IMG/VR virus record: IMGVR_UViG_3300042465_004038
Span: 1 to 35,150 of that record
Source of the DNA: a virus
Strand: one strand, 5' to 3'
DNA length: 35,150 nucleotides
Shown: positions 4,796-21,475 of the stretch, in pieces
How the letters are laid out: the number at the start of each line of letters is the position of its first letter
Position numbering within the stretch: the stretch's first letter is position 1
Made by a program: the position numbers and the translations under genes
Notes under the pieces: model-generated
Told to the model about the DNA's origin: nothing
What the model saw: only the letters and a program-made list of their open reading frames with translations
Database searches by the model: none

Positions 4796-5737
4796 TTATA
4801 TTGTAAATTTAACGATCTCAGCAACTTGAGAAACCTGAACACCGTATTTGAATTCCATCTTGAATCTTACTAGATCAAAATCTTCTGAATACCAAAACTT
4901 GAATGTTTCCTCTTCTCCCTGTAAATCAACTCCTAAAAACATATTAGCATCTTGTAATGCATAAATTGCGTTTACGTTGTTTAAGCCCGGACAAGATATT
5001 ACTTTAACATTTGTTCCATGTATAAACATTTCGCCTAATGCGTTATCAACAGATGTATAGTTGAATAAATTTGCATTAGTTAATGCGATCTGATACAATC
5101 TGAAAATATGAGTACCTACGTTTACTTTTAAATCTGCTTTGTCTAATAATGCAATAGGAATTGCTTTGTAAACACCTTGCATAATAGAAATAATGTTTGC
5201 TTCAGTAATTGCTGTAGCTACTGCACTTACATAAGCAGTTGCATTCGCTTGAGTAGTTCCACTTGCAGCATTGATAATTTTTACTAAACCATCAAATTTG
5301 TTGATGTTAGGATTACCACTTGCAGTATCACCTGTCCAAATTGCTACTTCGATTTGCTCAGCATTAGTACCTGTAACGGTATTTACAAATGCTTGATCAA
5401 TACCACCCGGTAAAGCATCATACTTAGAACCCGGCGAAAGTAATAATTGAGTGTATTTTGCCTCAAGATCTTTGATACACCATTCTTTATTTACCTTAAT
5501 TTTACCAATGGTTAATGTTCTACCACTGATTGAAGTGTTACCACTTGCTGAGAAACCGCAAGTAGATCCATCTTGCCAAAACAACGAGTCTGATAAAGTT
5601 GGTACTTCTATTGAAGATTTTACCCCTGTTAAAGGAGTCATTCTTGAAGCCGTTTTTGCTTCAAACATTGCCTTAGTAATCAAAACATTTTCGTTTGGAT
5701 TGGTATAGGCTGCTAACGTTGATACTACAAATGCCAT
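4796..5737 (-). CDS. Major capsid protein (HK97-like)
   Basis: 313 residues. It begins with a helical N-arm region (AMFEAKTASRMTPLTGVKSS), has 'LFWQDGSTCGFSASGNTSIS' and a strand 'IKVNKEWCIKDLEAKY', and then a central helical domain with 'NVGTHIFRLYQIAL'. Its size, the run of protease gene, scaffold-like gene, then this gene, and the stem-loop/terminator arrangement downstream all fit the HK97-fold major capsid protein that builds the icosahedral shell. The start has an A-rich leader (AAAAAAAATTATG) with no Shine-Dalgarno sequence. Family resemblance is by overall pattern rather than a single catalytic motif. Confidence 0.8.
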   Translation of the reverse strand: MAFVVSTLAAYTNPNENVLITKAMFEAKTASRMTPLTGVKSSIEVPTLSDSLFWQDGSTCGFSASGNTSISGRTLTIGKIKVNKEWCIKDLEAKYTQLLLSPGSKYDALPGGIDQAFVNTVTGTNAEQIEVAIWTGDTASGNPNINKFDGLVKIINAASGTTQANATAYVSAVATAITEANIISIMQGVYKAIPIALLDKADLKVNVGTHIFRLYQIALTNANLFNYTSVDNALGEMFIHGTNVKVISCPGLNNVNAIYALQDANMFLGVDLQGEEETFKFWYSEDFDLVRFKMEFKYGVQVSQVAEIVKFTI

Positions 5738-5763
5738 AATTTTTTTTATTTATTTTTTTTAAT

Positions 5764-6306
5764 TTATATGTTACTTTTTTTCCATTCAGCAATTCTATCT
5801 GCTGCTGATTTTGCAGGTTTTGCTTTCTTAAATGTTGAATTTTTAGGTGCTTCAACTTCTACAATTGGCTCCTCAGCTATTGTATCAACTATTTCTTTGA
5901 TCTCATTAAATTTAGAATCTACATTAATACTTGCCATTTCTACTGCTGCTAACATATCTTGCATCTTTTTTTCCATTTCTGCAATCTTAGTTTCGCAAGC
6001 CATCATTCTCTCTTCATATGCAGACATATCAGGTTCAACTGCCAATTCCTCTTCAACCTCTTCAGATTTTGGTTCAATCATAGTTACTAGGCCGCCTAAT
6101 GTAGTTACCAAAGTACCATCTGATAATTCGTGTGTAGCATCAGGTGCAGGTGTTGTATTACCATCTGTATCTATTACCATAATTGCAGTACCTTCTCCTA
6201 GTTCACCCTCCCATTGGATTAGTGTTCCATCTGCTAATTTTGCATCATTGAAATTTTCGTTGTTAAATAATGCTTTTATCTTTGCGAATGCGTTTAATTT
6301 AGTCAT
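5764..6306 (-). CDS. Scaffold-like protein
   Basis: 180 residues, acidic in the middle, with a predicted coiled coil at about residues 95-150 (MSAYEERMMACETKIAEMEK onward) and a basic C-terminal tail rich in Lys, Ala and Ser. Acidic coiled-coil proteins ending in a basic helix, coded between a prohead protease and the major capsid protein, are typical scaffolds that guide shell assembly. An N-terminal beta segment of about 75 residues (LADGTLIQWEGELGEGTAI) is also common in this Bacteroidota family. It lies 26 bases before the capsid gene and carries a late-type motif upstream. A structural role is likely; scaffold activity is inferred. Confidence 0.65.
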   Translation of the reverse strand: MTKLNAFAKIKALFNNENFNDAKLADGTLIQWEGELGEGTAIMVIDTDGNTTPAPDATHELSDGTLVTTLGGLVTMIEPKSEEVEEELAVEPDMSAYEERMMACETKIAEMEKKMQDMLAAVEMASINVDSKFNEIKEIVDTIAEEPIVEVEAPKNSTFKKAKPAKSAADRIAEWKKSNI

Positions 6307-6319
6307 GTTCTTTTATTTG

Positions 6320-6334
6320 CTTAATAATATATTT
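6320..6334 (-). promoter_or_regulatory. Late-gene A/T motif, copy 3
   Basis: Minus strand reads AAATATATTATTAAG, identical over 15 bases to copy 1, about 13 bases before the ATG of the scaffold-like gene. Confidence 0.45.
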
Positions 6335-6350
6335 AATTTATTTTTTTGTT

Positions 6351-6932
6351 TTAGTTCTCTATTTGTTTGATTATATCAATCATTTCGTCTATCTTAGTTC
6401 TAGTTTTTTCAGCTATTTTCTCAGTCTTAAAAATACCTTCAACTGAAAATCCTTTGAACTCACCGGTTTTTATAAAGTCATTCCAAATCTCGTCATTGTC
6501 TACCTTATAAGATCCAAACCAACTTCCATCAGGCAAATTAAAGCCCTTAGGTGAATTAATGTTCCTGCTGCTATCTATTATAAAGTTTTCAATCATATAA
6601 ACATCATCTAGCATCTTATTAGGATCATGCATCATGTTTACTTCTTTATCCTTCGAGTATTTAAAAAACTTATTTCTAAGGTTATATATATCTATTGCAG
6701 TAAATAATCCGTAATATTCGCCATTCTCATCTCTTCTATAAATCGGTAAGTCAGCAACCATTAAAGCACCACTTATTACTCTCTTCTCTTTATCGGCTAC
6801 AAAGTTAATCCTTGAGTTATTAAAGGTTTGCCAATTTAGTTCAATAGCAGGATTGTCCACTAAGGCCATTGCTTCTAATTGACTTTCATCATCCTCTCCA
6901 ACTACAAATCTGTATATAGGTAATTTTTCCAT
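6351..6932 (-). CDS. Prohead protease, XkdF-like (S78_2-type)
   Basis: 193 residues from the ATG at 6932; a TTG two codons upstream would overlap the A/T motif and is less likely. The protein begins MEKLPIYRFVVGEDDESQLE and contains 'ALVDNPAIELNW', a candidate catalytic His in 'NMMHDPNK', and 'GSYKVDNDEIW' followed by 'GEFKGFSVEGIF', with a candidate catalytic Ser in GFSVEG. These match PBSX XkdF-type serine proteases, which mature the prohead. It precedes the scaffold and capsid genes, as expected. Naming the catalytic residues is inference from motif position. Confidence 0.8.
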   Translation of the reverse strand: MEKLPIYRFVVGEDDESQLEAMALVDNPAIELNWQTFNNSRINFVADKEKRVISGALMVADLPIYRRDENGEYYGLFTAIDIYNLRNKFFKYSKDKEVNMMHDPNKMLDDVYMIENFIIDSSRNINSPKGFNLPDGSWFGSYKVDNDEIWNDFIKTGEFKGFSVEGIFKTEKIAEKTRTKIDEMIDIIKQIEN

Positions 6933-6933
6933 A

Positions 6934-6948
6934 CTCAATAATATATTT
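6934..6948 (-). promoter_or_regulatory. Late-gene A/T motif, copy 4
   Basis: Minus strand reads AAATATATTATTGAG, ending one base before the ATG of the protease gene. It lies at the border between the tail block and the head block. Confidence 0.45.
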
Positions 6949-6951
6949 ATT

Positions 6952-8814
6952 TTATTTAATTGTTGCTTTTCTTATTATACCCTTTACTTTATTTTGTGTA
7001 TTAGTTATGTCGGTTTCAACCACTATAACTTTTCCTGTAGTATTCGTATTGTTTATATCCATAGGCCTGTTTTGATTTAGCATAGATCCGCTTAATGATT
7101 GTGGTATTCTAGGAATGGTTGGAACTACACCACCTCCACCACCATCTCCACCACCTTTAGTTGGAACAGGAGTATCAATAATATTTTTTACTGCTGCTAA
7201 TCCGGCCAATCCAATAGCAATGGATGAGGCAATTGCTAGTGGAGTATTTGCTGCATTTGCTTCTAATGTCTTAGCTATTGCTGAATAGGTTGATATTGTT
7301 GCTGCTGCAATTGCTAGTGCTTTACCTTCAACTGTATTTTTACCAACTAACTCGCTTATTGAATTCAATGAGTTAGCATAAGAATCTAATAATTGTAATT
7401 TTGCATCCTTTTCTTTTTGTGCAATTGCTAATTTAGCATCACTTGTTTGCTTGTCTGATAGTAGCCCTTTTTGATTTAATTCGTCTAAGGCTGCATATCT
7501 CTCTTCAGCACTTAAAACTTCATCTTTTGCTATTTCTTTTAGATCTTCAATATGTGATGCTTTTCTTTCTTTCTCTGCTAAATTTATACTGTCTTGTGTT
7601 CCCTTTTCTCTATCCTTTATAAATTTAGCCTTATCAACTTCAAGTTTTTCAAGACTTCTGTCATACTCTCCTTTAGTTATTAATTTGTTTTTTAAATCAG
7701 CGTCTAATATCTTTTTTTCAATTGCTTGTTGTGTTTCTAGTTCATTTACAGTTCTAGTACCTTTTGCTTTTAAGGCCTCAAGTTCAAAAGTTAATGCTGC
7801 TTTGTTTTCGGCAGCTATTTTTAAATTCTTTTGCTTTTCTAGTTCTTTTAAATCTTTGTTATGACCTGCAATTAATATTTTCTCTTCTTGCTTTAATTTA
7901 TCAAGTTCATCCTTATTATCAACGGCTGCTTTTTGCTTTAGTTTATTTAGCTCTAATTCATGCTTATAAGTCTTTTGACCACCTGCTCTTTCAACTTCTA
8001 GTTCCTTTTCTTTTTGCTTAATTAACCGATCTAGCTTTTCTGCTGCTGCTGCCTCTTCATTTGCTTTTATTCCTGCCTCCGCACCCTTTTTATAATTACC
8101 AACTACATCATAACCCTTTTTTATCTCTTCTAATGCGCCTGCAAAATCTCCTTGTATTAATTTACCAAATGCTTTAAATGGCATTAGTATAGCATTCTTG
8201 ATAACTTCTCCGGCACCATAAGCAACCTCTCTAAGTTTATCAAATATTTTCCCCATATCATTAAAGATCGGAAATGATTTTTTAACGGCTGCAGATATTG
8301 CTTCCCAATTAGCAAGTAATAAACCTACTGCAACAACTATCAAACCTATTCCGGTTGCTCCAATACCTGCCTTGATTCCTTTTAGCGCATCGCCTGCAAC
8401 ACTTTTTAAGTTTTTAAAAGCATCACCCATTCCTAGTAATCCGTTCAAACCTGTAGCAAGTGCAATTGCTCCTTGAGTCTTTGCCATTACTTTATTAAGA
8501 TCTTCACTTTCGGATCCCATGATTGCCATTGCGCCTTGCATAGCTGCGAATCCGTTTGCTGCAATACCAACTACATTTGCTAATGCTTGGAACTTCTTTT
8601 CAGGATTAAAAGCGTCAATAGTTGTTCTTGTATCTGCAATCTTATCTTTTAATTCACCGGCTTTTTTTGCAGCGTTAACAAAGGCTGCACTGCCTTCCTC
8701 AAGTGTTTGAAGTTCGTTTGTAACTGCTCGTAATTCTGCTTTTAAACTTTTAACCGATGTTATTGCGGGTGATGCTTTTATCTCAACATCTACTATTACT
8801 TTTTCAGTTGCCAT
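6952..8814 (-). CDS. Tape measure protein
   Basis: 620 residues. An N-terminal helical region (about 1-100) is followed by a Gly/Ala-rich hydrophobic stretch with a membrane-like segment near residues 145-170 (GATGIGLIVVAVGLLLANW). A very long Lys/Glu-rich coiled coil spans about 255-470, followed by a second hydrophobic Ala/Ile-rich segment (about 490-545), a Gly-rich linker (GGGDGGGGG) and a basic tail. This is the standard make-up of a tape measure, which sets tail length and later aids DNA entry. At roughly 0.15 nm per residue the tail would be near 90 nm, an estimate from the usual rule. It follows the 934-residue tail gene and precedes the head genes. Confidence 0.88.
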   Translation of the reverse strand: MATEKVIVDVEIKASPAITSVKSLKAELRAVTNELQTLEEGSAAFVNAAKKAGELKDKIADTRTTIDAFNPEKKFQALANVVGIAANGFAAMQGAMAIMGSESEDLNKVMAKTQGAIALATGLNGLLGMGDAFKNLKSVAGDALKGIKAGIGATGIGLIVVAVGLLLANWEAISAAVKKSFPIFNDMGKIFDKLREVAYGAGEVIKNAILMPFKAFGKLIQGDFAGALEEIKKGYDVVGNYKKGAEAGIKANEEAAAAEKLDRLIKQKEKELEVERAGGQKTYKHELELNKLKQKAAVDNKDELDKLKQEEKILIAGHNKDLKELEKQKNLKIAAENKAALTFELEALKAKGTRTVNELETQQAIEKKILDADLKNKLITKGEYDRSLEKLEVDKAKFIKDREKGTQDSINLAEKERKASHIEDLKEIAKDEVLSAEERYAALDELNQKGLLSDKQTSDAKLAIAQKEKDAKLQLLDSYANSLNSISELVGKNTVEGKALAIAAATISTYSAIAKTLEANAANTPLAIASSIAIGLAGLAAVKNIIDTPVPTKGGGDGGGGGVVPTIPRIPQSLSGSMLNQNRPMDINNTNTTGKVIVVETDITNTQNKVKGIIRKATIK

Positions 8815-15407: not shown

Positions 15408-15824
15408 TTATTGAGTTTCTTGGTTTTCTTGAATATTTAAATCTAGGCCTTTAAAGATCTCTCTTTCACCGGATACTTCCACTTCTTGTCTCTCTACATA
15501 TCCTCTCTTCTTTCCTTTAGTCTTTAAATAGAATATTATTGAACTTGGGTTGGGTGCATCCTTTACTTCTACTATGTCACCTTTGTTGGTAACAACCTGA
15601 TGCTTAGCACCCATCATTAATTGGTTCAATTGAGACTCGGCAAAGTCAATAGCCATATCACTTATACCTTCAACTGCTTCTTTATACTTCTCGTCATCTT
15701 TTAACCAAGCATAATGTGTACTTCTATCTATGCCAACTGTCTTGGCTGCTGTTGTTACTATTCCTAGACTTTTTTCAAGTGCTTCTAGCATAGCTTTTTT
15801 TATTGTAGGATTATGTGGGTTCAT
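15408..15824 (-). CDS. terS: Terminase small subunit
   Basis: 138 residues. A helix-turn-helix lies at about residues 20-50 (GIVTTAAKTVGIDRSTHYAW), followed by 'LKDDEKYKEAVEG' and a helical oligomerisation region (DFAESQLNQLMMGA). It ends in a Glu/Gln-rich tail. This is the typical small terminase subunit that recognises the phage packaging site and hands DNA to the large subunit. It lies just upstream of the large subunit and one base after the end of the dioxygenase gene, so the modification genes and packaging genes appear co-transcribed. Confidence 0.85.
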   Translation of the reverse strand: MNPHNPTIKKAMLEALEKSLGIVTTAAKTVGIDRSTHYAWLKDDEKYKEAVEGISDMAIDFAESQLNQLMMGAKHQVVTNKGDIVEVKDAPNPSSIIFYLKTKGKKRGYVERQEVEVSGEREIFKGLDLNIQENQETQ

Positions 15825-15825
15825 A

Positions 15826-16593
15826 TTATAAATTTTTAAATGCTTTTAACGGATAGAATACTAATGAATTACGATAACCTCCTTCAAATGTAGGAATGAT
15901 TGGAGTAACACCATGTATGTTTTTCCAAGCAGGATATACTAGTATTGAATTATCTTTTTGTCCTATGGTTGCGTTGTAGTCAGGTATATGTAGATCACCT
16001 CCTTTTGAATTATGCTTCTTACATATAATAACGTTTACGGCTCCTTGTATGTTTCCTGCATCTCTGTGGAATGGTGCTGATATATTATAGTTTGAGATTG
16101 AACTAGTAAATAGACTGCCAAACTTCCACTTGTCGTCCATGTCTTTAAATAGTTCTATCTGTCTATCATATTGGTTTGGTATTATTTCTTTTATTAGTTG
16201 TTCGCTTTCCTTAGCTAGTAATAACATTGCTTTTATAAATGTTTGCGCAGTCTTTACTGAATGTACGGATGATTTTGAAGCATAGTTTCTTCTCATGTGT
16301 GGTCTTGGCGGAACACTACCTATAATAGTTGAGTATTGGAATACCTGTTGTTCATCTGTATGTATACCACTAGATCTACCCATATTTGTTTTAGGTACAT
16401 TCTTGCTAGTAAGTTCTTTGTCGGCTAGATCCGCAAGTTTACACATCTTGTCCGGCATCTTAGACATATAGAAGCCTATTGGCTCACCGTTGTCGTAAAA
16501 TATACAATCCTCTGTTACATTAGGTTCAATGTACTTGCAGTTGTCTCCAATCTTAATTGAATGCTCAACTAGTTTTAAGTCTATTCTTTTCAT
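15826..16593 (-). CDS. TET/JBP-type 2OG-Fe(II) dioxygenase, predicted DNA base hydroxylase
   Basis: 255 residues. The C-terminal half holds an intact 2-oxoglutarate/Fe(II) site: H176-R-D178 (in SAPFHRDAGN) and H227 (in WKNIHGV) as iron ligands, and R241 (in GGYRNSL) as the likely 2OG-binding arginine. The stretch H-R-D-x-x-N-x-x-G followed by a hydrophobic strand and G198-G199-D resembles the TET/JBP branch, whose members oxidise methyl groups of thymine or 5-methylcytosine in DNA. The start overlaps the kinase gene by 29 bases. Four modification-type genes lie upstream and the terminase downstream. The 2OG enzyme call is strong; DNA base as substrate is inferred from subfamily pattern and neighbours. 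A prolyl or small-molecule hydroxylase is the alternative. Confidence 0.8.
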   Translation of the reverse strand: MKRIDLKLVEHSIKIGDNCKYIEPNVTEDCIFYDNGEPIGFYMSKMPDKMCKLADLADKELTSKNVPKTNMGRSSGIHTDEQQVFQYSTIIGSVPPRPHMRRNYASKSSVHSVKTAQTFIKAMLLLAKESEQLIKEIIPNQYDRQIELFKDMDDKWKFGSLFTSSISNYNISAPFHRDAGNIQGAVNVIICKKHNSKGGDLHIPDYNATIGQKDNSILVYPAWKNIHGVTPIIPTFEGGYRNSLVFYPLKAFKNL

Positions 16594-17098
16594 TTATTTC
16601 TATATCTAATATTTTATAAAATTCATCTTTTACTTCTTGTATAGATCTGTTATTGTCTATAATATATAATTTTCTCATACCATTGGTTTTTTTTATCAAC
16701 GATATATGATTTTTAAGTTTATTGTTATATGTAGCAACGTTTATTGTTTTACCTCTTTGCGAGATCCTTTTAAGATTGTTTTCAAAGTCTGTTTTTAAAT
16801 AGTACAATACCAAGTCAAAATAAGGCCTCAACTCTTCAAAATCTTTTATTTGACAATAATAGTTTCCTGCTATTAATATATTCTTATCTGTATTGCGCTT
16901 TATTTCGTTTAGTACATCTTCTTTTTTATGATAACATAAACTGTCTGCACCCCTTATTTTAGTACCTAGTACATATACATTATTCCGGATCTCTAAAAAC
17001 ATTGATGTCCTAGACAATATAGGCTCCTCTATTAAAGTTGATTTGCCTACACCGTAATTACCTACAATAAAAAATACTTTCTTTTTAGCTATACTCAT
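16565..17098 (-). CDS. P-loop kinase, predicted hydroxymethyl-base DNA kinase
   Basis: 177 residues. Walker A is GNYGVGKST at residues 13-21. Further conserved-looking points are 'RGADS' (49-53), 'ILIAGNYYCQIKDF' (74-87, at the position of a lid or substrate-binding strand), 'LVLYYLKTDF' (97-105) and basic residues R111 and R115. The size and order fit small P-loop nucleotide kinases found in phage DNA-hypermodification operons, where a kinase phosphorylates the hydroxymethyl group of a base in DNA and so makes a leaving group. It overlaps the transferase gene upstream (14 bases) and the dioxygenase gene downstream (29 bases), implying translation together. Kinase fold is clear; the substrate is inferred from context. 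Confidence 0.75.
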   Translation of the reverse strand: MSIAKKKVFFIVGNYGVGKSTLIEEPILSRTSMFLEIRNNVYVLGTKIRGADSLCYHKKEDVLNEIKRNTDKNILIAGNYYCQIKDFEELRPYFDLVLYYLKTDFENNLKRISQRGKTINVATYNNKLKNHISLIKKTNGMRKLYIIDNNRSIQEVKDEFYKILDIEINEKNRLKTS

Positions 17099-17909
17099 TC
17101 AAATAGTTTTTTGTAAATGTTTCAGATCTAAATTCCCATAGTACGTTCCAATATACTCCCTGAGTAATTTTACTCTGCATATCAATTAATTCTTTTCTCA
17201 TTCTTTCAATATAGTATCCTACAAATCTTTTACCGTTCCTATACTTCTTATATGCGCACAAAGTAGTTTCTATTTGGAATATATCACCTTGATTCTCTTT
17301 TAATACCTTTATAAACTCGTTATGTAAGTACAAAGCATCCTTTGATGTTATTTTTTTATCAACCAAATCAATTCTACCGATCGCATATGCCAATCCATTC
17401 CTGCAGGATTCCGCTTCAATCATATTCAAATACGTTGGTTTTAAGTTTACATCTGTTATTTGATTTAATACATCTAGATAATTGAATAATGAAAACCGGC
17501 CAAAGTATTTTATGCTTTCTATTTTCTTATAGATCTTTTGCCATGTTGTAGATCTAAAATAGTTCTGTTGGTTATTCCTTACTAATGACTTATAACTTAT
17601 AAAGCACTCTACAAACTGATCATTTGACTTTATCCTTAGCCGGTCAGTTTGAAATAATAGATTATGTTTATTTTTATTCCACCATTTACTTAGCCTGTCT
17701 ATATCAACGCATTCAAAGTCAGGAAACTCATTGTATATGTAAAAAGTAGTAACTGCTGAATAACAAGTGCCGTATAAAAAAGCAATCCAATATCTTTGCT
17801 CAATATTAAGTTCATAACGATCTGAAATATACTTTAAGCAAGTTATAGATGGATCAATATCTTTAGCTAGTAAACTTTGTTTATGATATGTCTTGTAGTC
17901 TATTACCAC
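17085..17909 (-). CDS. Amino-acid:DNA transferase / aGPT-Pplase-like protein
   Basis: 274 residues, all-helical. Distinctive points are 'QRYWIAFLYGTCYSAVTTFY' (38-57), 'FQTDRLRIKSNDQF' (86-99), 'IKYFGRFSLFNYLD' (133-146) and 'ESCRNGLAYAIG' (167-178). I recognise this set as the alpha-glutamyl/putrescinyl-thymine pyrophosphorylase (aGPT-Pplase) clade, later called amino-acid:DNA transferases. These are predicted or shown in other phages to replace a (pyro)phosphate on 5-hydroxymethyluracil in DNA with an amino acid or amine. The gene lies between the amidotransferase and the kinase and overlaps both. Which nucleophile it uses cannot be read from the sequence. Identification rests on recalled family motifs, so a profile search is the key check. 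Confidence 0.7.
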   Translation of the reverse strand: MVIDYKTYHKQSLLAKDIDPSITCLKYISDRYELNIEQRYWIAFLYGTCYSAVTTFYIYNEFPDFECVDIDRLSKWWNKNKHNLLFQTDRLRIKSNDQFVECFISYKSLVRNNQQNYFRSTTWQKIYKKIESIKYFGRFSLFNYLDVLNQITDVNLKPTYLNMIEAESCRNGLAYAIGRIDLVDKKITSKDALYLHNEFIKVLKENQGDIFQIETTLCAYKKYRNGKRFVGYYIERMRKELIDMQSKITQGVYWNVLWEFRSETFTKNYLNEYS

Positions 17910-18493
17910 TCGTATAAGTTTAAGTTGGTTACTTCTTTTTGTATAACAATACCGCTTCGTTTCATTATATCCTTAGTAGAACAAATAATAATGTTATTGT
18001 CATCGTTGAAGTATAAAGGCCTTTTTTTGTTCCTCAGGGCAATTAACTTTCCATTGTCAAGTCCTAACATGGCGAATGTTATGTTATCTCTTAAAACAAA
18101 CGATTTGTTGTCAAATTTTTGAATTAAAACATATCCATCGTTTTCTATTTCCATCTTGACTCCAAATTCCTTTTCTATCTCGTTTTTACTTTTCTGTGAA
18201 ATAACTCCGTTGAATACTATTGATTTGTTTTCAAAAGTTATCGGTTGGTTATTTTCCATTACATTAAAGTCTCCACTAGTAGAATATCTAAAATGAGCAA
18301 TAAATAGATCAGGTGCTATTGAATGTATTTTATTTTTAAACTCTTTGTAATCAAGGTATTTGTATGTTTGTATTATACCATTGTTATAATAGGAGAACCC
18401 AAATGCGTGGATTCCCCTTAGCCGGCTTTCATCAAACACCTTGTCTAATAAATTTATATCATATACACCTTTGAAACCTATTACTGAACACAT
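17903..18493 (-). CDS. Stand-alone class II glutamine amidotransferase (Ntn hydrolase)
   Basis: 196 residues beginning Met-Cys, so removal of Met1 exposes the nucleophile Cys2 as in GlmS, AsnB and PurF. Other hallmarks are present: 'RGIHAFGFSYY' (24-34, equivalent to RGPDxxG), 'IAHFRYSTSG' with the glutamine-carboxylate-binding Arg, 'NNQPI', 'FNGVISQ' (oxyanion-hole Asn-Gly) and 'ENDGYVLI', followed by the late 'RNKKRPLYF' strand. There is only the glutaminase domain; no synthetase or isomerase partner is fused. It would release ammonia from glutamine for another enzyme. Its position between the ParB-like and transferase genes suggests it amidates the moiety added to DNA. The fold is strongly supported; the acceptor is unknown. 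Confidence 0.85.
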   Translation of the reverse strand: MCSVIGFKGVYDINLLDKVFDESRLRGIHAFGFSYYNNGIIQTYKYLDYKEFKNKIHSIAPDLFIAHFRYSTSGDFNVMENNQPITFENKSIVFNGVISQKSKNEIEKEFGVKMEIENDGYVLIQKFDNKSFVLRDNITFAMLGLDNGKLIALRNKKRPLYFNDDNNIIICSTKDIMKRSGIVIQKEVTNLNLYEW

Positions 18494-19075
18494 TTAGTTG
18501 TTTTTAGATTGCTCTAATTTTAGTTGCTCAATCAGGAACCCACCAATGTAAAGTTCTTTGTCTCTCCAATATTTAACGATCTTTAAGGCCTCTTCATAAT
18601 GCTCAAGTTCAAACTCAATCAATATAGCCTTCTTTACTCCATCTGACATTTCGCCAAGTTCTTTTGATACATCCTCTCCATCAAGTATTGAGTAGTCAAC
18701 ATCTGCAGGTTGATTCCAAACGTCAAAACCCCACTCTTGTAACTGCTCTGAATCCCAATCATTTGCTAATTCATCCCAATTCCAATCACCAAAGCCTACA
18801 TTGTCCTTAATGATAAATTCTCTTTGCTGCTGCTCTGATAAATCTTTTGCCTTTATAATATATACCTCAGTCAATCCGGCTTCAATACAGGCTCTTAAAC
18901 GCATATTGCCGCCTAGTACAATCATATCCTCGTTAACTACAATAGGCCTTATCTCAAGCATTGTAGGAAATTCTTTTATTGATGTAACAAGTTTTCTAAA
19001 TTTGTCATCCTTAATTATTCTAGGATTATTTTCATTAGGCTTTACTTGTTCTATTTTTACTTTTTCAATTTTCAT
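18494..19075 (-). CDS. ParB/Srx-fold protein
   Basis: 193 residues. The N-terminal 100 residues are a ParB-type nuclease-like domain: 'VKPNENNPRIIKDDKFRKL', 'IRPIVVNEDMIVLGGNMRLR' with the GGxxR motif, then 'EVYIIKAKDLSEQQQREFII'. The acidic middle ('GFGDWNWDELANDWDSEQLQ') is seen in phage ParB-like proteins that also have a methyltransferase or packaging partner. Related domains bind or cut DNA, or use nucleotide triphosphates. It begins the tight five-gene modification block and ends one base before the amidotransferase gene starts. It might target the modification enzymes to DNA; this is inference from context. Chromosome partition is unlikely for a phage of this type. Confidence 0.8.
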   Translation of the reverse strand: MKIEKVKIEQVKPNENNPRIIKDDKFRKLVTSIKEFPTMLEIRPIVVNEDMIVLGGNMRLRACIEAGLTEVYIIKAKDLSEQQQREFIIKDNVGFGDWNWDELANDWDSEQLQEWGFDVWNQPADVDYSILDGEDVSKELGEMSDGVKKAILIEFELEHYEEALKIVKYWRDKELYIGGFLIEQLKLEQSKNN

Positions 19076-19077
19076 AT

Positions 19078-19608
19078 TTATTTTAATTTATATAGTTTAC
19101 TCCAAGTTGTCGGCACGTTCATATATTTTACTAGATCGTAACCTAGTTTATCAAATAGTACATTCCATTCCTGATCGTTTTTAATATTTATATGACCCCA
19201 ATCTGCATCACCATCTGTTTTGTTAGGTGTTGAACTGAATAGTATATAATTAGGCCTGATCTTTTTAAATAATGATTTCAATTCCTTGTCTGTCATATGT
19301 TCAGCAACTTCTATGAATACAAGTAGATCCGTTGTAATAGGTAACGGTAATATAACTAAATGCGGCAAGTTTTCTCTTATATACTCCCTATGCGCTTCAA
19401 AATATTCGTACCCAACTATATTGTAAGACTTTCTATGAAAAGCATCTGAGTACGCACCTACACCGGCACCGTAATCAAGTACAGATTCAAATTGTACTTC
19501 TTTTGCTATAGCCTCAACTGTAGCATCACATAGGCTAATAAAATCTTGATTGAACGGGCTTATACCCATTTTCAATTCTGCTTCTAAAAATTGTTTGTCT
19601 GTTATCAT
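19078..19608 (-). CDS. Class I SAM-dependent methyltransferase, unknown substrate
   Basis: 176 residues with a Rossmann-type methyltransferase layout: motif I 'VLDYGAGVGAYSDAF' (about 42-56), acidic end of strand 2 'IVGYEYFEAH', motif IV region 'LLVFIEVAEHMTDKELKSLF', and a later 'NYILFSSTPN' strand. The 'E-V-x-E-H' form resembles small-molecule or Methyltransf_11/23-type enzymes. It lacks the PCQ and ENV motifs of cytosine-C5 methyltransferases and the DPPY motif of adenine enzymes. It lies just upstream of the ParB-like gene and overlaps the preceding gene by 4 bases. It could methylate a hypermodified base, a sugar or a protein. Confidence 0.8.
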   Translation of the reverse strand: MITDKQFLEAELKMGISPFNQDFISLCDATVEAIAKEVQFESVLDYGAGVGAYSDAFHRKSYNIVGYEYFEAHREYIRENLPHLVILPLPITTDLLVFIEVAEHMTDKELKSLFKKIRPNYILFSSTPNKTDGDADWGHINIKNDQEWNVLFDKLGYDLVKYMNVPTTWSKLYKLK

Positions 19609-20168: not shown

Positions 20169-20372
20169 TTAATCTTTAAACGTTTCGTTGTAGTATTTTT
20201 CTCCGGGTAATTCATAATCTAATCCAATTATTTTTATTTGATTACAAGCATCAATTATCTGTTGCTTCTCCATTTCTTTGGCTTTTGCAAATAATCCAAA
20301 TTCATTTACATTATAATTTTGTAGGGCAATTAATTCTTGTTCTAACCATTCAACTGCTGTTTGTTTGCTCAT
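20169..20372 (-). CDS. Small conserved phage protein (67 aa)
   Basis: 67 residues: 'QTAVEWLEQELIAL' at the start, 'KAKEMEKQQIIDACNQ' in the middle and 'EKYYNETF' near the end. I recall this pattern (TAVEWL, MEKxQI, YYNETF) in many small proteins of Bacteroidota phages, always without function. The start overlaps the stop of the glycosyltransferase gene by 4 bases. Helical and probably soluble. Confidence 0.7.
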   Translation of the reverse strand: MSKQTAVEWLEQELIALQNYNVNEFGLFAKAKEMEKQQIIDACNQIKIIGLDYELPGEKYYNETFKD

Positions 20373-21475
20373 AATTTTATTATTTGTTTATATGCGTTAT
20401 ATCTTAACTCTGCTATTTTTTCTATTGATTGTACTTGAACATCTAAATACAATTGCTCGGCTAGATCTTCTATCATATTTGGATTACGGATTAGTTTCAC
20501 CATTTGCTTATACCAATCGTGCTTACTTTTAGCCTTTAAACAATTTTTATCAGTGAGTAAAGTATTGTACGGATGAACATCTGAAACAATTACGGCCTTC
20601 TTTTTAAATCCGGCTTCTAATAGTTTCAAGTTAGATTTCATATTATTAAATCTTGTATCTTTTAAAGGTATCAAAGCAACATTTATACGATCGTAAAAAT
20701 AAGCATAGTTATGAACATCTGTGCTTGGAAAGATCTCAAAATTATTTTCGCTTGCTTTACCCTTACAAGACAACACGCCAAGCATTGCTTCGCTTTCGCC
20801 ATCACCCTTAGCATAACCACCATATACCATCTTGAAACTATCTTTATATCTATAGTCAGTATATAAAGACAAAAGGCTATCGTGCATGAGCATAATATCG
20901 TCAAAATGAGTAATACTACCACTCCAACCAAATACCACACTTAAATCACTCTTAAATGGCACAGGTTCAAACTGAGCAAAGCTAGGCAAACCGTTTGGTA
21001 TCAAATAAGTTTCTTTGCTTCCAAATTCTTTTTTTATCTGATCCGATAATAATTGATGAGTACAAGTAATTACATCAGCGTATTTTATTGAATCTTTTAC
21101 ATCGGCTCCAATACCATCTCTCTTAGATACATTATATAAAATATGATTAGTTGGTAGTTGAAAGTCATCATCCATATCAAGAACAAATTTAACTCCTGCT
21201 TTCTTTATTTTCTCTGCTACTTTTTTTGATTCAAGTATTTTAGACATCGTTCTATTTGCTACAACTAAATCAAATCTTTGAATAAACTCAATCGAATCTA
21301 CACCATCAATAATATTTGAATCAATGTCACCTACTTGATGTAATTCAACATCATCAAAATATTTAAACAATGCTCTATGCGGATTCAATAACCTATGATA
21401 ATCAACACCGTTTAATGTTGACTTTTCTCCAACTTGTGTTTCGCTATAGCTAGGAATTAATACTAGTATTTTCAT
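20369..21475 (-). CDS. GT-B glycosyltransferase (GT4-like)
   Basis: 368 residues in two Rossmann-like halves. The N-terminal half starts 'MKILVLIPSYSETQVGEKS' and includes 'GVKFVLDMDDDFQLP'. The C-terminal half starts after 'YLIPNGLPSF' with 'VFGWSGSITHFDD', contains 'VALIPLKDTRFNNMKSNLKL', where the acidic/basic pattern resembles the sugar-nucleotide-binding E-x(7)-E region, and ends with helices. This is a GT-B fold, closest to GT4-like enzymes. The acceptor could be modified DNA bases, virion proteins or host surface. Position upstream of the methyltransferase and DNA-modification genes makes DNA glycosylation possible but not shown. No signal or membrane anchor is seen. Confidence 0.8.
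   Translation of the reverse strand: MKILVLIPSYSETQVGEKSTLNGVDYHRLLNPHRALFKYFDDVELHQVGDIDSNIIDGVDSIEFIQRFDLVVANRTMSKILESKKVAEKIKKAGVKFVLDMDDDFQLPTNHILYNVSKRDGIGADVKDSIKYADVITCTHQLLSDQIKKEFGSKETYLIPNGLPSFAQFEPVPFKSDLSVVFGWSGSITHFDDIMLMHDSLLSLYTDYRYKDSFKMVYGGYAKGDGESEAMLGVLSCKGKASENNFEIFPSTDVHNYAYFYDRINVALIPLKDTRFNNMKSNLKLLEAGFKKKAVIVSDVHPYNTLLTDKNCLKAKSKHDWYKQMVKLIRNPNMIEDLAEQLYLDVQVQSIEKIAELRYNAYKQIIKL

Follow-up and report, generated by a model that had tools for sequence, protein, structure and literature searches.

What would five tightly packed genes beside the terminase genes of a phage do to its DNA? The question is raised by IMG/VR record IMGVR_UViG_3300042465_004038, a virus contig of 35,150 bases (the completeness of the record is uncertain) that we analysed over its whole length, hereafter the window. 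In it, five minus-strand genes (19075-15826) are packed closely together, with overlaps of 7, 14 and 29 bases, the first two genes, for a ParB-like protein and a glutamine amidotransferase (GAT), abutting. We think it likely that, once phage DNA has been replicated, the products of this operon build a nitrogen-linked hypermodified pyrimidine in it, by way of a TET/JBP-family dioxygenase (TET), a P-loop kinase, an amino acid:DNA transferase (AADT) and the GAT. The five genes, and the terminase gene that marks the conserved boundary of the cassette, are as follows:

18494..19075 (-), ParB-like protein, 193 aa, operon gene 1; Pfam ParB_N
17903..18493 (-), class II (N-terminal nucleophile, Ntn) GAT, stand-alone, 196 aa, without a synthase domain
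17085..17909 (-), AADT, 274 aa, GTG start; Pfam ADDT
16565..17098 (-), small P-loop kinase, 177 aa, with a Walker A motif; predicted 5-hydroxymethylpyrimidine DNA kinase
15826..16593 (-), TET/JBP-family Fe(II)/2-oxoglutarate dioxygenase, 255 aa; Pfam Tet_JBP
15408..15824 (-), terminase small subunit (phrog_309, E 5e-13)

In the pathway that we propose, the TET would hydroxylate a 5-methyl group, most likely that of thymine, to give 5-hydroxymethyluracil in DNA; the kinase would phosphorylate the hydroxyl of this base; the AADT would displace the phosphate at the C5-CH2 with a nitrogen nucleophile; and the GAT would work with its own AADT clade, probably by releasing glutamine-derived ammonia at or near the AADT. 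A GNAT enzyme, found in relatives, would acetylate the resulting amine, and the modified base would shield phage DNA from host nucleases. The substrate base, the order of the steps, the nucleophile and the protective role are what we infer from the comparison of sequences and loci. An earlier note on this DNA had described five overlapping or abutting genes with intact catalytic motifs: on re-reading, the reading frames and motifs were as it had given them, and its family assignments (TET/JBP, AADT, class II amidotransferase, P-loop kinase and ParB) held. The succession that it had put forward, in which a base is hydroxymethylated, phosphorylated and then conjugated, is strongly supported by comparative genomics and by the match of the AADT to a 5-phosphomethyl-2'-deoxyuridine (5-PmdU) glycinyltransferase.

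The comparison drew on 563 TET relatives in IMG/VR, of which 80 were kept; searches with the AADT, GAT and kinase added loci, giving 230 in total and 155 after dereplication, mostly from uncultivated phages. The cluster labels that we use for these loci come from hidden Markov models built in this analysis. The five-gene set recurs in more than 80 of the dereplicated phage loci, far beyond chance, and in several gene orders: ParB-GAT-AADT-KIN-TET, ParB-TET-GAT-(GNAT)-AADT-KIN2 and ParB-KIN-GAT-AADT-TET. What the sequences show directly is which genes are present, that their active sites are intact, and that the locus is both modular and conserved in its linkage.

Both the 274-residue and the 255-residue protein pass their Pfam cut-offs, the former as ADDT (PF18724; 71.2 bits, cut-off 26.2) and the latter as Tet_JBP (PF12851; 41.0 bits, curated cut-off 34.9). 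In the AADT the motif ESCRNGLAYAIG can be read directly, and the profile matches the transferase of Kuttervirus (ViI-like) phages with a probability of 99.6. A structure model built from 70 homologues (predicted local distance difference test, pLDDT, 96.6; predicted template modelling score, pTM, 0.92) replaced an earlier, poor model from 8 sequences (pLDDT 49.9). Its best solved match in Foldseek is PDB 8z2n (E 2.8e-5, probability 1.00, TM 0.68/0.65, 12% identity): this protein is the 5-PmdU glycinyltransferase gp46 (PUGT) of Pseudomonas phage PaMx11. The next-best structural match is a DNA glycosylase. Because a sequence profile search with the AADT did not find 8z2n, the fold match constitutes independent structural evidence. 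We predict that the AADT transfers a nitrogen nucleophile to DNA, and propose ammonia as that nucleophile. As a separate observation, the AADT frame of one relative (L125:2069-3097) is preceded in-frame by a partial GNAT-like stretch, which is a possible GNAT-AADT fusion or a remnant.

The kinase carries the Walker A motif GNYGVGKST, of which G18 and K19 are invariant in 25 kinases. Pfam returned weak, generic P-loop matches only, with no match to Ploopntkinase3 (PF18751) in the scan of the window kinase, and a tblastn search against isolated phages found no match. The link to Ploopntkinase3 runs only through a second kinase family, KIN2: the window kinase matches this family by profile (probability 98.1), 19 of its 33 members match Ploopntkinase3, and the family matches the kinase of Rhodococcus phage Tonitrus (probability 99). 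The survey also shows the company that the kinase keeps: it is present in 88 of the 91 AADT loci with TET and in none of 53 loci that carry a TET-associated glycosyltransferase (TAGT) or an FkbM methyltransferase without AADT. Such a tie is expected if the AADT route alone requires a phosphate leaving group, and the lack of a kinase from the other loci fits TAGT and FkbM enzymes that use the hydroxyl directly.

The window GAT scores 25.7 bits against GATase_6, slightly below the Pfam cut-off of 27; 58 of the 60 members of its family match GATase_6, one relative passes the Pfam cut-offs, and the family profile matches PurF (E 2e-9) and GlmS. The sequence reads MC...RGIHAFG...FNG, and residues C2, R26, R69, N95, G96 and D119, aligned with PurF, are invariant in 60 amidotransferases. 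Of the 93 loci that have a GAT, 90 also have an AADT, the exceptions being a contig end and two outgroup phages of the Zobellviridae; the GAT is present in all 59 dereplicated loci fetched by the AADT, and an AADT is present in 44 of 45 loci fetched by the GAT. The AADT query was built from GAT-bearing loci, and so this linkage describes one AADT clade, which the GAT accompanies 90 times out of 90. On the AADT tree, GAT presence changes once, GNAT presence 12 times and kinase type 10 times; GAT and AADT stay adjacent across the differing gene orders, apart from an intervening GNAT. The Zobellviridae amidotransferases were set aside: they lie in an amidoligase/ATP-grasp cluster, not in a DNA-modification cluster.

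Class II amidotransferases provide ammonia for a partner, and the AADT is the only constant partner here: it is for these reasons that ammonia is our proposed nucleophile. The earlier note had suggested that the GAT may amidate the conjugated product; a supply of ammonia to the AADT is more likely, given that we recognised no ATP-dependent ligase among the operon's genes. We tentatively extend this proposal, at a little short of an even chance, to a two-subunit, ammonia-using DNA aminase, in which GAT and AADT would convert 5-phosphomethyl-uracil, derived from TET-hydroxylated thymine, to 5-aminomethyl-uracil in one step, with GNAT acetylating the product in relatives. A variant of the same explanation, differing in the nucleophile alone, is possible but less likely than not: the AADT would add an intact amino acid, such as the glycine of PaMx11, while the GAT would act later or separately, either as an amidase of the adduct or as a source of glutamate or ammonia for a different reaction. 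This variant draws on the best structural match being a glycinyltransferase and on the very name of the Pfam family, amino acid:DNA transferase; moreover, no GAT-AADT fusion was found among the surveyed loci, and a physical coupling of the two is putative. On the other hand, the GAT is tied to one AADT clade, and in the GAT cassettes we recognised no flavin lyase and no pyridoxal phosphate (PLP) or radical S-adenosylmethionine (SAM) processing enzyme (a flavin-lyase test by PF01266 was uninformative, having missed a record known to carry a cluster-76 oxidoreductase). The GNAT acetyltransferase, found in 45 loci, every one with a GAT, suggests that no processing of this kind is needed to produce a free amine. 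Also of interest are relatives that lack the GAT (L016/L096 and L030, in the order ADDTb-FAD-KIN-TET), with a different AADT and a putative flavin adenine dinucleotide (FAD) oxidoreductase replacing the GAT; the two kinds of cassette may be two routes to an amine.

We turn to the TET and its probable substrate. The iron triad (H176/D178/H227) and the 2-oxoglutarate-binding arginine (R241) of the TET do not vary across 149 homologues. Among PDB structures, the family profile picks out human TET2 (E 4.5e-8), with no JBP oxygenase structure among its matches. A thymidylate-synthase-type hydroxymethylase (PF00303) was absent from all 40 distinct TET records searched (the window and 39 related), the positive control, a ViI-like phage, scoring 54 bits; a C5-cytosine methyltransferase (PF00145) was found in 4 of the 40, in 1 of the 29 AADT-bearing records, and not in the window. 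These records are possibly incomplete genomes, which makes the absences soft evidence. With no such hydroxymethylase in the 40 records, the hydroxymethyl group probably comes from the TET, whose simplest substrate is thymine, because thymine is already methylated and C5-cytosine methyltransferases are rare in the AADT records; the enzyme probably makes hydroxymethyluracil from thymine within DNA. Separately, the window TET/JBP protein (15826-16593, -) belongs to PHROG 6059 (phrog_6059), whose annotation reads queuine tRNA-ribosyltransferase; this name has spread to RefSeq phage records. As the active site and Pfam indicate TET/JBP, the label looks like a propagated misannotation.

In addition to the softness of the absences, several points weigh against the scheme. 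To our knowledge, the sole phage TET activity is on 5-methylcytosine (5mC), and host-made 5mC may be the substrate instead. The likeness of the AADT to PUGT is structural only, and the window kinase aligns with the ViI-like P-loop kinase at the Walker A motif only. Among loci fetched by TET alone, the kinase is present in 6 of 6 with AADT and in 0 of 51 with TAGT or FkbM (Fisher p 2.8e-8), but such p-values ignore kinship among the loci and thereby overstate their independence: the coupling of kinase and AADT comes down to just 4 phylogenetically independent pairs on well-supported branches, all concordant. Finally, the ammonia step is drawn from gene linkage alone.

Bearing in mind the first of these points, we considered a cytosine version, in which the TET would oxidise 5mC made by the host or by an unrecognised phage methyltransferase, and kinase, AADT and GAT would build a hypermodified cytosine. 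Characterised phage TETs act on 5mC together with phage C5-methyltransferases, as relayed by PMC12730594 citing Burke 2021; the match of the TET profile to TET2, though no JBP structure is among its matches, and the C5-methyltransferases in 4 of 40 related records point the same way. We nevertheless judge this version unlikely, given that PF00145 is lacking in the window and in 28 of 29 AADT records, and that the AADT fold match and the characterised homologous pathways involve 5-hydroxymethyl- or phosphomethyl-uridine (PMC6449724).

The thymine-based scheme that we favour also has to be seen within a wider family of loci. ParB (131 of 155) and TET (147 of 155) form a constant pair, mostly adjoining terminase genes, and it is the finishing set that varies: TAGT (PF20691) in 29 loci, FkbM (PF05050) in 25, and AADT or ADDTb in 96, this third set consisting of kinase, AADT and GAT, with or without GNAT. 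On a TET tree of 130 rows the decorators change 17 times, and well-supported branches force 4 changes for AADT, 3 for TAGT and 2 for FkbM; these changes indicate that TET was retained through repeated replacements of the finishing set. A sister locus, ParB-FkbM methyltransferase-TET, is found in the cultured Prochlorococcus phages P-HS2 and MED4-117 (L002 and L003; around 5641-7765). In such loci FkbM could O-methylate the TET-made hydroxymethyl group to give a methoxymethyl base.

The window ParB matches ParB_N at 31.7 bits (cut-off 26.3) and has the motif GGNMR. ParB is present whichever finishing enzyme accompanies it, and we suspect a role in DNA binding or targeting. Two bases upstream of its gene lies one for a Methyltransf_23-type SAM methyltransferase (19078-19608, -), which recurs at this position in L078 and L095 and may belong to the pathway. 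A glycosyltransferase-like protein (phrog_7162; 20369-21475, -) is encoded a few genes upstream of the operon, and its relatives stand directly before ParB in L006-L008 and near ParB in L095. Downstream of the operon come the genes for the small and then the large terminase subunit, and most relatives likewise have a terminase gene after the cassette. Other genes in the window encode portal-like, SU10-like capsid, tape measure, ERF, YqaJ, NinG, helicase and M15 endolysin proteins; a 480-aa protein at the contig end (33586-35028, -) has no Pfam (E<=0.01) or PHROG (E<=0.001) match.

This setting bears on whether the enzymes act on the phage's own virion DNA, or instead on free nucleotides or the DNA of the host or of a competitor. 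The aGPT-Pplase and 5-hmdU kinase domains also occur in predicted bacterial defence systems (PMC13092281), but the operon sits among packaging genes, adjoining terminase, in most relatives, and the characterised homologous enzymes act on the phage DNA polymer (PMC6449724); we regard a target other than virion DNA as very improbable. As for the host, the large terminase is 55% identical to those of Flavobacterium psychrophilum phages and the portal has matches only in Nonlabens phages, from which a Bacteroidota host, probably among the flavobacteria, is likely, as the earlier note had supposed. A single-protein scan of bacterial genomes with the window TET gave no match, and a TET profile scan gave four contigs of metagenome-assembled genomes only, of mixed lineages, which do not fix the host.

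How new is the system? That TET-generated hydroxymethylpyrimidines are starting points for further modification is reportedly an older general idea, from Iyer in 2013. The earlier note had held that the combination of genes may define an undescribed modified base; the core of the combination is not new, because ParB, Tet-like, aGPT-Pplase2 and 5-hmU kinase genes of Rhodococcus phage Tonitrus were reported in 2025 as a thymidine hypermodification system (PMC11955845). We checked the Tonitrus genes: as in the window, ParB-like, Tet-like, aGPT-Pplase2/AADT and P-loop kinase genes cluster near terminase, the TETs being 27.6% identical, whereas Tonitrus lacks a glutamine amidotransferase, differs in gene order and carries a weakly ApbA-like (Rossmann) gene. 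In M6, ViI and phiW-14, 5-hydroxymethyl-2'-deoxyuridine (5hmdU) in DNA first receives a phosphate from a 5hmdU DNA kinase, and transferases then act on it (PMC6449724), and in M6-like cassettes the 5hmdU is made at the nucleotide level by a thymidylate-synthase-like pyrimidine hydroxymethylase (PMC9476957). The window shares with M6, ViI and PaMx11 a kinase and an AADT-fold transferase in one cluster (its AADT model matching PaMx11 gp46), but has a TET in place of their hydroxymethylase and adds the GAT. Phage systems of TET, C5-methyltransferase and glycosyltransferase act on 5mC (Burke 2021, via PMC12730594); there too TET/JBP starts the pathway, and the window's sister loci carry TAGT, whereas the window has no C5-methyltransferase and a predicted nitrogen transfer replaces glycosylation. 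Kinetoplastid JBP and base J likewise have hydroxylation of thymine in DNA, predicted for the window, before decoration, which here would be with phosphate and nitrogen, not glucose, and on a thymine substrate that is itself inferred. Within the library of papers searched, none combined glutamine amidotransferase with hypermodification, phage and thymine; what is new relative to Tonitrus is the amidotransferase, the acetyltransferase and the swap-slot, and we have not found described before the obligate class II amidotransferase, the GNAT that accompanies it here, the FkbM alternative or the quantified swap-slot.

Relatives of the operon with interchangeable finishing enzymes are present in more than 100 uncultivated phages, making this a widespread candidate DNA disguise. 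If our reading is correct, many environmental phages would hypermodify bases wholly after replication, from ordinary thymine, with TET replacing the nucleotide hydroxymethylase, and in the swap-slot (glycosylate, methylate, aminate) nature would have a combinatorial system for DNA chemistry. A direct question is whether phage TETs share with kinetoplastid JBP the ability to hydroxylate thymine. The reading would entail both a thymine-hydroxylating phage TET and a glutamine-dependent amidotransferase working on polymeric DNA, and a DNA-aminating enzyme of the latter kind would be useful for DNA labelling.

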